Positions 15,580 to 19,219 of a stretch of 22,888 nt of DNA are shown here, one piece after another. A program made the position numbers and the translations under genes. This DNA is from an uncultured Clostridia bacterium (GTDB lineage Bacteria > Bacillota_A > Clostridia > TANB77 > CAG-508), in contig CALXSA010000020.1 of assembly GCA_944390995.1 (NCBI GenBank), positions 1 through 22,888 on the forward strand, read 5' to 3'. Each line of letters begins with the position of its first letter. Position 1 is the stretch's first letter. The notes under the pieces were generated by a model. That model searched no databases. It saw only the letters and a list, made by a program, of their open reading frames with translations, and had not been told where the DNA came from.

Positions 15580-15627
15580 ATTACATTTTTTTCACAATTT
15601 GTTCACAAAAAACTTGTATTATATAAT
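15580..15627 (+). promoter_or_regulatory. htrA promoter with three 11-bp-period operator half-sites
   Basis: ATTACA (15580), TTCACA (15591) and TTCACA (15602) start exactly 11 bp apart, each with a 5-nt spacer. Nine bases after the last is TATTAT (15617-15622), with TATAAT overlapping at 15622-15627. No good -35 exists where the hexamers sit, as at activator-dependent promoters. Period and spacing match DNA sites of OmpR/PhoB-family response regulators. Confidence 0.65.
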
Positions 15628-15707: not shown

Positions 15708-16973
15708 ATGGAAGAAAATAACAATGTTCAAAACAAACCAAATGAAGATGGCAAAAAATTCAAAAGTTCTAATTCAAATATTTCGTATAGTTCTTTTGAA
15801 GATTCTAGCAAAAAACGAAAAGAGAAAAAGTCAGGAGGAGCAGGCTTTGGTAAAACTGTAGTACTTCCTTTTGCCTGTGGAATTCTAGGCGCTGGCATAG
15901 TAATAGGAACATGCTTTGGAGTTCCAAGTATTAGAAGCGATATTTTAGGATATGTTTCAGAAGGCGACAACTCTAGCTCTCAGACAGTAAACACACAACA
16001 AATTTCATTACTAGATTATTCAAACACTGCTGTAGGAGTTGCTGAAAAAGTTTTACCTTCTATTGTTGGTATTAACGTAACCTATTCAGTTAATTCAATA
16101 TTCTACAACAATCAGTCTGTTGCTACTGCATCAGGCTCTGGAGTTATAATTAGCGAAGATGGATATATTTTAACTAATAATCACGTTGTAAATTCAAGTT
16201 CTTCGTCTTCATATTATGAGTTAGGAAAAGCTAACAAGATAACAGTTTCATTATATAATGATGATACAGAATATGAGGCTGAAATTGTTGGTACAGATGA
16301 ACAAACAGACTTGGCAGTAATTAAAATTGACAAAGATGGGCTTACTGCTGCTGAACTAGGAGATTCAAGTTCAGTTAAAGTTGGTGAATTCTGTATGGCT
16401 ATTGGTAATCCGCTAGGACTAGGAAGTACTGTAACTGATGGTATTGTTAGTGCCGTTGATAGAGAGGTTACAGATGAAGATGGTAACACATATGTTGCTA
16501 TTCAAACAAATGCTGCTATAAATTCAGGAAATAGCGGTGGTGCTTTAGTAAATAGCCAAGGTCAGGTTATTGGAATTAACACATTAAAAATTGCAGGTGA
16601 TGGTGTAGAAGGCGTTGGTTTTGCAATTCCTATAGATTCTACTAAAGATATTTACGAGCAATTAATTCAATACAATAAAGTAAAAAGACCATATCTAGGA
16701 ATTGGCGGAATTGAGGTTGATGCTGCAACCGCTGAAAGAAATAATTTAGTAGAGGGCATTTATGTTAAAACATTGGAAAACTTTTCAGCTGCCGAAAAAG
16801 CTGGAATAAAAGTTGGAGATGTAATTATTAAGGCTGGTGGTCAAGACATAAAAACAATGGACGAATTAAATGAAATTAAAAATGCAAAGGAAATTGGAGA
16901 TGAAACAACCCTTACAGTATGGAGAAACGGAGATACTCAAGATATTAAGGTTACTTTGCAAGAACAACCTTAG
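15708..16973 (+). CDS. htrA: HtrA/DegP-type membrane serine protease with PDZ domain
   Basis: 421 residues. A charged cytoplasmic N-terminus (about 50 residues, lysine- and serine-rich), one membrane anchor (about 51-72, TVVLPFACGILGAGIVIGT), an extracytoplasmic trypsin-like domain and one C-terminal PDZ domain (about 325-415). The catalytic triad is intact: His159 in LTNNHVV, Asp201 in TDLAVIKID, Ser276 in NSGNSGGALVN. Homologues degrade misfolded envelope proteins. Start ATG 15708 follows AAAGGA. It is monocistronic, ends in a hairpin (16990-17033) and a bidirectional terminator, and its promoter carries a three-hexamer operator array. In Bacillus, htrA is controlled by the CssRS two-component system; an analogous regulator here is inference. 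Confidence 0.96.
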   Translation: MEENNNVQNKPNEDGKKFKSSNSNISYSSFEDSSKKRKEKKSGGAGFGKTVVLPFACGILGAGIVIGTCFGVPSIRSDILGYVSEGDNSSSQTVNTQQISLLDYSNTAVGVAEKVLPSIVGINVTYSVNSIFYNNQSVATASGSGVIISEDGYILTNNHVVNSSSSSSYYELGKANKITVSLYNDDTEYEAEIVGTDEQTDLAVIKIDKDGLTAAELGDSSSVKVGEFCMAIGNPLGLGSTVTDGIVSAVDREVTDEDGNTYVAIQTNAAINSGNSGGALVNSQGQVIGINTLKIAGDGVEGVGFAIPIDSTKDIYEQLIQYNKVKRPYLGIGGIEVDAATAERNNLVEGIYVKTLENFSAAEKAGIKVGDVIIKAGGQDIKTMDELNEIKNAKEIGDETTLTVWRNGDTQDIKVTLQEQP

Positions 16974-17116: not shown

Positions 17117-18895
17117 TTACTGCTTTGTAAGTATCTCATAAATTCCATATGTTTCCGAGCTAAAACCATTTTGCTTTAAGTAATTTATCGCTTCCTTATA
17201 ATTATTTGTTATTACAAAAACGCAATCCTCTTTATCTAAATCAATAAATTGTACTTCTATTTCATTGTATAAATAATTATATTCTAATATTTTACTAATT
17301 TGCTCTAATGTTCCACCATTATAGCTCCTTGTTTCTTTTGTAGAATTAAACTCCTCTGGAGATGGTTTAAGCGCAAGCATATTATATATGTATGGAGATG
17401 ATTTATATACTAGCAGATACTTGTCAATATCTTTTGTCTCCTCATTACTCTCTAATTCCTCTGTAATATCTTTTAAATATGTGTCTTCATACCAACTTAT
17501 TGTTCCAAGTCCATCAACCGTATAAAAATAGTATGTATAATTCACTACAGATACTGTAATTAAAGCCATAAACACTGCTAACAATATCTTTGAGTTGTTA
17601 CAAATTTCTAGTATTGCTATTGTCACAAAATATAAAATTGGTATGTACAAAACATTCGCCTTGTTTGGAGTTGGAATTCTGGTAGTCAACAAGCCAATAA
17701 ACATCGTGGTAAAAGCAATAACCATTAATGAAGTAACTCCATATTTTTTATCCTTGATTTCTTTTATCATTCTGCTAAATTCAATTATATAACCAATTAT
17801 GAATAATGGTATATACATTAAATATATTGTGCCTTCGGCGGTAAATATAGTCTTTATGCTTTCTAGTCCCGTCTTAAAAATATTAGTTACGCCTATCTCC
17901 CCTCCTCTAAATTCTGGAAGAACTGGCAACGAAAAAATTCCTATCTGGGTTTGTTTTACTATTCCATAGTTCAATAATAGGAAGTATATTAGTGGTATAG
18001 CAAATATAAAAATTGGTATTCCTAATATTATTAACTGTCTAAATTTAATTCGCTTAATATATAGCATATATGCTGCCCATACCAATAGGAACAAAGGAAT
18101 TGTAAGCCATGACAAAGCATAAGTATACAATGTCAGTCCTATAGATATTCCCGCTATAACAAAATGTACATTCTTTTGAGCCCTGTTTAATAAGTATAAA
18201 TCTAGCATAAATAACCCGGCAAACAAATTGCAATCTAGAGCCATTCTAGCATTGAAGATATTCCATGGGCATGTGATTATTAAAAACGTAAACAATAGTG
18301 CCGTCTTCTTATTTTTCGACTTCGAAATAAGCAAATACGAAACCACTACAGAAATCAAATACACTATTAATGCTGGAAGTCTGTATGCCACTTCATTAAA
18401 ACCAAAAAGCTTAATACATAATGCCGCTAAATACGCACATAGCGAGCTCTGTCCCTGCCCGAAATTCATCAAATATAGCGGATATGAATTCTGAAACCTA
18501 TCTGTACCATATTCAGCCAAGCAAAACGCATCATACGCCATTCCTGCCTCATCTACGCCTATATATGCTGGTATCTCTCCAAACTTAAAAATAACTGTAA
18601 AAAACAAAATAATGGCAAACACCAGCCAAATTATCTTATAATGCTTCTCAACAAAACCTGTTTTTTGGGTTTGAGCAGTAAAAGAATTTTCCTCCCCTTC
18701 CGTTTTTTCATTAGAAACATTCTCAAGCGTATCGCTAGTAACACCTTCTACCTGCTTTTTATTCTCTTTCTGTAAAAGTTTTGTACTTTTCTTAATATTT
18801 TTTCCCTTTTTCCTGTCATCTGCATAATTTTTTATAAGAGCAATAACTATTACTAATATTACTAGCATAAAACATGCAAAATCTATAATGTTCAC
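17117..18895 (-). CDS. GT-C family membrane glycosyltransferase (ArnT/PMT-like)
   Basis: About 592 residues with roughly twelve membrane segments. After a short N-terminal helix (IIDFACFMLVILVIVIAL) there is a charged linker of about 60 residues, then the GT-C core. The first external loop has IPAYIGVDEAGMAYDAFCLAEYG, with the paired Asp-Glu typical of ArnT/PMT-type enzymes that move a sugar from polyprenyl phosphate to lipid or protein outside the membrane. PLYLMNFGQGQSSLCAYLAAL and RLPALIV are conserved-looking. The C-terminus (about 120 residues) is extracytoplasmic. Start GTG 18895 follows GAGAGGAAG by 8 nt; the frame stays open to TTG 18964, but that codon lies inside the promoter. Sugar and acceptor are unknown. 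Confidence 0.8.
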   Translation of the reverse strand: MNIIDFACFMLVILVIVIALIKNYADDRKKGKNIKKSTKLLQKENKKQVEGVTSDTLENVSNEKTEGEENSFTAQTQKTGFVEKHYKIIWLVFAIILFFTVIFKFGEIPAYIGVDEAGMAYDAFCLAEYGTDRFQNSYPLYLMNFGQGQSSLCAYLAALCIKLFGFNEVAYRLPALIVYLISVVVSYLLISKSKNKKTALLFTFLIITCPWNIFNARMALDCNLFAGLFMLDLYLLNRAQKNVHFVIAGISIGLTLYTYALSWLTIPLFLLVWAAYMLYIKRIKFRQLIILGIPIFIFAIPLIYFLLLNYGIVKQTQIGIFSLPVLPEFRGGEIGVTNIFKTGLESIKTIFTAEGTIYLMYIPLFIIGYIIEFSRMIKEIKDKKYGVTSLMVIAFTTMFIGLLTTRIPTPNKANVLYIPILYFVTIAILEICNNSKILLAVFMALITVSVVNYTYYFYTVDGLGTISWYEDTYLKDITEELESNEETKDIDKYLLVYKSSPYIYNMLALKPSPEEFNSTKETRSYNGGTLEQISKILEYNYLYNEIEVQFIDLDKEDCVFVITNNYKEAINYLKQNGFSSETYGIYEILTKQ

Positions 18896-18935
18896 TTTGT
18901 TTCTTCCTCTCTTATTTCTATTAAATAACATGTAT

Positions 18936-18964
18936 ATAATATCATTATAAATTAGACTTGACAA
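18936..18964 (-). promoter_or_regulatory. Promoter of the GT-C glycosyltransferase gene
   Basis: Minus strand: TTGTCA (18959-18964), 17 bp, TATTAT (18936-18941). Five of six matches in each box. It begins about 18 bp from the hexamer array of the divergent sRNA promoter, so one regulator could affect both. Confidence 0.65.
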
Positions 18965-18981
18965 GCATAATTTTCCTATTT

Positions 18982-19024
18982 ATCACAATTAGTTCACACA
19001 ATGTTCAAATTTCCCCTGTATAAT
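18982..19024 (+). promoter_or_regulatory. sRNA promoter with three 11-bp-period operator half-sites
   Basis: ATCACA (18982), TTCACA (18993) and TTCAAA (19004) start 11 bp apart; nine bases later comes TATAAT (19019-19024) preceded by TG. No -35 is present. TCACAATTAGTTCACA (18983-18998) matches 15 of 16 bases of 15592-15607 in the htrA promoter. The geometry is the same at both sites. Confidence 0.65.
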
Positions 19025-19029
19025 ATGCT

Positions 19030-19126
19030 CATAGTTGATAAACAAGTTACTCCATTATCAACTATGTATAAGTAAAACATCCCCTTTTATTTTCAAAAAG
19101 CAACTGTATACTCAGTTGCTTTTTTA
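19030..19126 (+). ncRNA. Candidate ~97-nt small RNA with C-rich anti-Shine-Dalgarno motifs
   Basis: Begins about 6 nt after the -10 box. The first 12 nt, CATAGTTGATAA, pair perfectly with TTATCAACTATG (19055-19066) around a 13-nt loop holding TTACTCC. A single-stranded linker follows with CCCCTTTT (19081-19088), then a terminator: AAAAAGCAACTG and CAGTTGCTTTTT, 12 bp around a 6-nt loop, ending in a T run. No ORF with a ribosome site is present. The promoter-stem-linker-terminator order and two C-rich motifs exposed for pairing with ribosome binding sites are typical of Gram-positive regulatory RNAs. Not recognised as a known family. Confidence 0.65.
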
Positions 19127-19134
19127 TTATATAG

Positions 19135-19182
19135 AAAAAAGTATATGTCATAGAAATAAATACTCTCTGTGACATATACTTT
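19135..19182 (-). terminator. Terminator of the rplJ-rplL operon
   Basis: On the minus strand AAAGTATATGTCA pairs perfectly (13 bp) with TGACATATACTTT around a 19-nt loop, followed by further T residues. It lies about 70 bp after the rplL stop codon and faces the sRNA terminator. Confidence 0.8.
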
Positions 19183-19219
19183 CTTACAATATAATATTTT
19201 TCTAAAACGTAGCAATTTT

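Follow-up and report, generated by a model that had tools for sequence, protein, structure and literature searches.

A family of C-rich small RNA genes sharing a promoter box with htrA in one order of Clostridia

The DNA analysed here (the window) is a stretch of 22,888 nucleotides (nt) from contig CALXSA010000020.1 of an uncultured Clostridia bacterium (GCA_944390995.1). It carries a small RNA (sRNA) gene of about 97 nt whose structure, conservation, promoter box shared with the protease gene htrA and linkage to htrA were established computationally. Sequence comparisons indicate that this gene belongs to a genuine, order-wide family, which is apparently undescribed and lies outside Rfam. Its product is probably a trans-acting envelope-stress sRNA, activated together with htrA by an OmpR/PhoB-type regulator and acting through an anti-Shine-Dalgarno (anti-SD) sequence. 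The sRNA locus comprises the following features:

18982..19009, plus strand: activator-type promoter element with half-sites ATCACA (18982-18987), TTCACA (18993-18998) and TTCAAA (19004-19009), repeated with an 11-bp period
19019..19024, plus strand: -10 box TATAAT, the third half-site lying 9 nt before it
19030..19126, plus strand: small RNA of about 97 nt, its ends deduced from the -10 box and the terminator
19030..19066, plus strand: 5' hairpin with a 12-bp perfect stem (19030-19041 with 19055-19066) and loop ACAAGTTACTCCA, which includes TTACTCC
19077..19094, plus strand: C-rich linker core ACATCCCCTTTTATTTTC, the likely pairing site, its first 17 letters being ACATCCCCTTTTATTTT
19095..19124, plus strand: intrinsic terminator of 12 pairs followed by T-rich sequence (terminator scan and fold)

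An initial annotation, made from the letters of the window alone, had described three hexamers with an 11-bp period, a -10 box without a -35 element, a perfect 12-bp 5' stem and a 12-bp terminator with a T run. All were recovered at these positions, and a consensus scan gave no sigma-70 -35/-10 pair there. Folding of 19030-19126 yielded -27.5 kcal/mol (z = -8.0), a stability reached by none of 200 shuffled sequences. The C-rich linker was likewise present, although its proposed single-stranded state was only partly retained since in the fold weak pairing of AAGUAAAA with UUUUAUUU encloses CAUCCCC in a hairpin loop.

Homologues were searched by anchoring on rplJ in genome contigs and keeping the best 80 of 346 relatives. 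The element occurred downstream of rplL in 21 of these 80 (blastn E<1e-15), where promoter, 5' stem and linker were kept and the flanks were unrelated; the 29-letter block ATAAGTAAAACATCCCCTTTTATTTTCAA was exact in the same 21. A covariance model (R1) built from the window and 19 of the 21 close loci had hits in 42 of 95 relatives (E<=0.1). The weakest two among its single matches, L178 and L179, looked coding and were presumed false. With model R2, matches were obtained in 241 of 385 genomes from the same order (E<=0.01). At the class level this model matched 9 of 391 (E<=0.001), all nine being already among the order matches. The 17-mer ACATCCCCTTTTATTTT was exact in 231 of the 385 order genomes and the reversed-pattern control was zero throughout. 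By hand count, 49 genomes held two or more copies of it, with a maximum of five, numbers that overlapping contigs can inflate (in G004 one copy was counted twice).

The covariation alignment comprised 32 sequences, 31 of them distinct. Both sides had changed in 6 of the 12 pairs of the 5' stem, amounting to 27 cells, a value reached by none of 500 shuffles (six pairs were reached by three); versions of the stem slid along the alignment gave at most 8 cells. Likewise, 92.9% of the stem cells were paired, whereas slid stems reached no more than 56.9%. The outermost pair was unpaired in 18 of the 31 sequences, which leaves a common stem of about 11 bp. These compensatory changes, together with the invariant C-rich linker and the conserved hexamers, agree with what the initial annotation had expected of related Clostridia and strongly support its sRNA of about 97 nt. 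The fold, together with this conservation of promoter, stem and linker, also places the element above chance. The expectation extended to the second stem: terminator letters differ among relatives and the stem is rewritten, as judged by eye and without a count. Both the 5' stem and its loop are dispensable, given that one homologue (L176) lacks the stem and that 23 of the 52 relatives checked have lost TTACTCC, which the other 29 retain. Of the two anti-SD-like motifs originally proposed as pairing sites, the linker core is invariant and the loop is not part of the core.

Promoter conservation was counted over 53 sRNA loci, of which 20 come from the wider order; the others are that of the window and its 19 close and 13 more distant homologues. 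Spacings to the -10 box of 8 to 10 nt were allowed, with 9 preferred. Excluded beforehand were loci cut by contig ends (L003, L025, L165, L177, L181), the presumed false L178 and L179, and L175 and L182 (ORF-following paralogue, no box; ORF, open reading frame); paralogues L392-L411 stood outside the count. The models contained the -10 region and not the hexamers, barring stray letters in a few long rows. TTCACA was exact before all 53 sRNAs and the third half-site lay 9 nt from the -10 box in all 53; the first half-site,.TCAC, was exact in 49 loci, and 52 had it with at most one mismatch. Within the window alone, TTCACA-N5-TTCACA with up to two mismatches occurred 6 times against 3.9 expected, which is within chance, and its sole exact occurrence was the htrA promoter box. 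By contrast with the single hit of the reversed control, the strict promoter pattern gave 50 hits in 18 of 21 sRNA genomes. The genes behind them, read for 30 of the 50 loci, were htrA, lemA-htpX (LemA, Peptidase_M48), a HlyIII gene, an ABC-transporter membrane gene and the sRNA itself. As htrA loci from this pattern were selected by the box, the fair test was confined to the window and loci fetched with R2: the box preceded 16 of 18 such htrA genes, 15 times exactly, and none was seen in L368 and L375, both of which have irregular starts in the ORF call.

In G002 (C8) and G018 (C4 and C20; L091), the TTCACA repeat before the ABC-transporter membrane gene is followed by a poor -10 box (TACCAT), and the gene is a possible, weak further member of the regulon. 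PhoP/PhoB sites are likewise spaced by 11 bp. The idea of a Pho box was not supported: in G009, sites with at most one mismatch lay before lemA-htpX, htrA and the sRNA, and at a fourth place without a gene start within 300 nt on its strand (1.18 Mb scanned, contig C22 with a HlyIII-type site lying outside).

The wiring of the sRNA to htrA is strongly supported by sequence. In the window, the neighbouring features are:

15591..15622, plus strand: htrA promoter with the same box, TTCACA-N5-TTCACA-N9-TATTAT
15708..16973, plus strand: htrA, a trypsin-like/PDZ membrane protease (Pfam Trypsin_2, PDZ), whose best NCBIfam match is degP_htrA_DO, under the cut-off
17117-18964, minus strand: PMT_2 gene, between htrA and the sRNA

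Of the 19 testable wider-order loci, 17 had htrA immediately upstream of the sRNA and in the same orientation; one gene intervened in L381, no htrA was adjacent in L373, and L366 was cut. In G001 a distance of 1.4 kb separates the htrA box from that of the sRNA. In L362-L365, L367-L372, L374 and L376, minus-strand genes encoding a prepilin-like N-terminus (GITLVALTITI..., judged by eye) adjoin htrA beyond its start and diverge from it.

Paralogous copies were sought in ten genomes, nine of which had at least three model matches in one of two earlier searches. Of the 32 matches obtained, 22 were not the best of their genome, and 20 of these 22 were read. The 17-mer was exact in 18; L396 differed by one letter at its start, and L407 proved instead to be the leader of an OmpR-type regulator gene. 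Upstream regions, classified by eye, were of several types: TTCACA-type without a 5' stem (L394, L401), sigma-70 with TTGACA-N17-TATAAT (L408, L409, L411), TTTACAAT/TTCACAAT (L405, L406, L410), or the end of an ORF (L392, L395, L397-L399 and others). Since the upstream types vary while the core stays, the linker is the part shared by the copies, and extra copies with the same core behind other promoters point to it as the functional part. In seven genomes (G004, G022, G251, G284, G387, G379, G398), a second copy was nearly identical together with the end of the preceding membrane-protein ORF (L084/L085, L175, L392, L395, L397, L398, L399), which suggests recent transfer or strong constraint. 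The L084 copy precedes a phosphoglycerate-mutase-like gene (Pfam His_Phos_1).

No family reached its gathering score in an Rfam 15 scan of the window. In a permissive scan, SpF25, RsaE and LhrC led on the plus strand with 20 to 22 bits (gathering scores 48 to 110), and the top match, csRNA (RF02379), scored 23.5 bits (gathering score 57), on the minus strand only. The closest known parallels include the CiaR-dependent csRNAs of Streptococcus (RF02379; PMC3091779, PMC8186281). These depend on an OmpR-type regulator with N5-spaced direct repeats near the -10 box, a box resembling that of the present sRNA; htrA belongs to the CiaR regulon and stands behind the same box here; several related copies occur per genome, as here. 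Both also share the order of 5' hairpin, linker with anti-SD letters and CAU (anti-AUG), and terminator, the linker CAUCCCCUUUU of the present sRNA carrying anti-SD and anti-start letters. The csRNA layout of two stem-loops and an open linker was found in the fold, the 5' stem covariation and the linker letters, with a weak third hairpin that may form. The two differ as follows: the csRNA repeat is TTTAAG-N5-TTTAAG, 10 nt from the -10 box, whereas here it is TTCACA at 9 nt in all 53 loci; the core is different, the sRNA strand has no RF02379 match, the family is found in one order of Clostridia, and copies other than the htrA-linked one are mostly under other promoters.

LhrC of Listeria (RF00616; PMC4132741, PMC5880928) is comparable in being multicopy and tied to the envelope-stress two-component system LisRK, its CU-rich single-stranded sites binding SD regions and lowering cell-envelope proteins; yet RF00616 scored 20 bits here, its gathering score being 110, and for the present sRNA a link to envelope stress is suggested only indirectly, through the box in common with htrA and lemA-htpX. 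RsaE/RoxS (RF01820; PMC4409812), from Staphylococcus and Bacillus, is likewise about 100 nt long, response-regulator activated and C-rich (CAUCCCCUUU), and its CCCCUUUU is a proven messenger RNA (mRNA) pairing motif of C-rich Gram-positive sRNAs. RoxS has a duplicated CCCCUUUGUU and answers ResD/NO, whereas one CCCCUUUU stretch was found here, CATCCCCTTTT occurring once in the window, and RF01820 scored 21.5 bits against 79. No RNA with these core letters was found in the open-licence literature, judged by titles and abstract beginnings, nor was any description of this RNA in titles and abstracts of the open-licence sRNA, htrA, two-component and Clostridia literature. By analogy, the best reading is that the sRNA works like csRNAs and LhrC and belongs to neither.

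Under the reading that we consider probable, an OmpR/PhoB-type regulator would occupy the 11-bp-spaced TTCACA half-sites instead of a -35 element and, upon envelope or secretion stress, would activate htrA, the sRNA and, in several genomes, lemA-htpX. The variable 5' hairpin and the terminator would cap an RNA with the invariant core ACAUCCCCUUUUAUUUUC exposed; this core would pair with GGGG-type SD regions and lower translation of target mRNAs, HtrA and HtpX meanwhile removing misfolded proteins. We infer transcription, response-regulator control and the stress signal, as well as anti-SD repression, the latter from the motif and by analogy. A more ambitious version, which we hold as tentative and rather doubtful, is a system spanning this order of gut Clostridia with small genomes, in which the regulator raises HtrA/HtpX and fires an sRNA silencing exported and membrane proteins, with paralogues adding further signals to the same targets; it would be a Gram-positive counterpart of the sigma-E/MicA-RybB logic.

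Several observations weigh against trans-acting anti-SD control. The conserved linker is much longer than anti-SD pairing requires. Target searches, covering 1.18 Mb of about 1.4 in G009 and 0.97 Mb in G043, revealed no conserved target, pairing in both genomes staying inside the shuffle range. In G009, 20 of the 40 best linker-paired start regions (of 1089) encode a hydrophobic N-terminus against a background of 28.7% (Fisher p = 0.003); the maximum was 18 in 40 shuffles and 23 in another 40 that retained CCCCUUUU, so that the linker flanks add nothing to predicted pairing there. The enrichment was not replicated in G043, where the G043 linker gave 9 of 40 and the consensus linker 13 of 40, a number that shuffles also reach; no enrichment of exported-protein targets is claimed. 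Among 319 reciprocal best hits between G009 and G043, 7 genes were in the top tenth of both (shuffles: mean 4.6, maximum 8). The pattern AAAAGGGGATN{3,9}ATG had 43 matches, spread over 25 of 31 genomes, and its reverse 21, without a common target among 30 loci read. Nor was an autoregulated regulator gene found among those read in five genomes. Peptide coding was also dismissed, as only MYK was seen by eye in the window copy and its ATG was lost in relatives.

The missing conserved target, and A and U flanks that add nothing to predicted start-region pairing in G009 although the core is invariant over at least 17 letters, would suit a linker that is mainly a protein-binding site, for an RNA chaperone or a titrated protein, making the RNA a sponge rather than an antisense molecule. 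The U-rich UUUUAUUUU ahead of the terminator resembles a chaperone site and was counted on that side. We regard this explanation as unlikely, as a crude motif search of the incomplete G009 and G043 gave no Hfq-type or KH-type match, and CCCCUUUU is a proven mRNA pairing motif in RoxS (PMC4409812). Action in cis on htrA or rplL, whether as leader, attenuator or 3' element, is less likely again: the position directly after htrA in 17 of 19 loci would fit it, but the RNA is provided with a separate promoter box and terminator, its core recurs in copies elsewhere in the same genomes, and in the window an opposite-strand gene separates it from htrA, rplL downstream being on the opposite strand too. 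Moreover, the complementarity of the htrA start region to the linker was matched by 102 of 200 shuffles, and htrA was also rejected as a target on this count. That there is no RNA gene at all, only a two-way rplL terminator plus an operator palindrome, is scarcely credible. Its stem is indeed stable on both strands, with rplL converging on it; yet rplL has its own minus-strand hairpin (19130-19190), the 5' stem covaries next to an invariant linker, and in the wider order the element comes after htrA and carries a promoter on one side only as well as a terminator of its own.

Direct half-sites spaced by a single helical turn that adjoin the -10 box and replace the -35 element are typical of OmpR/PhoB-type activators, as described for CiaR (PMC3091779). 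The response-regulator induction proposed initially is supported as a class assignment by half-site spacing, the missing -35 element and the box common to htrA and lemA-htpX. Five genomes encoded 4 to 8 such regulators each, among which two groups defined by sequence, RR-B and RR-C, were found in all five; a group that we take to be WalR-like occurred in four. RR-B (VanR-like, a few kb from lemA) is an unlikely candidate: its best match was only E 1e-46 to 1e-61 in sRNA-bearing G043, G044, G050, G037 and G040, and it seemed missing from G007, G011, G014, G024 and G030 as well, all genomes scored being possibly incomplete assemblies. RR-C, PhoB-like but under every curated cut-off and accompanied by a HAMP-HisKA kinase, is a candidate only by elimination. 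The OmpR-type regulator gene of L407 (G161:C5, about 40100-40320; ORF 1614-2294 of the locus, beginning MFNVLVVEDDKNLRKL) has a promoter of the same geometry, TTCATA-N5-TTCATA-N9-TATAAT, and its leader contains AAAATCCCCTTTTATTTTA. A TTCATA repeat likewise lies before a related regulator gene in G002 (L161), and these genes possibly form a sister regulon.

In a lineage represented here solely by metagenome assemblies, the present results reveal an apparently undescribed sRNA family, which is tied to a compact regulon of htrA and lemA-htpX and whose role is probably the adjustment of protein production under cell-surface stress. They also suggest that surface proteases and a C-rich sRNA came under a common response regulator more than once in Firmicutes. 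The signature ACATCCCCTTTTATTTTC behind TTCACA-N5-N6-N9-TATAAT can be scored in any gut metatranscriptome.

The contig itself is of Clostridia type, and rplL, rplJ, rplA, rplK and nusG, named by eye from their translations, occupy the minus strand of the window. The minus-strand hairpin that follows rplL is long, ends in T-rich sequence (z = -6.4) and stands back to back with the sRNA terminator. On the other side, a sigma-70-like site at 18936-18964 (minus strand; TTGTCA-17-TATTAT with TG before the -10 box, 10/12) faces the PMT_2 gene, and this gene and the sRNA may be transcribed divergently from about 100 bp.
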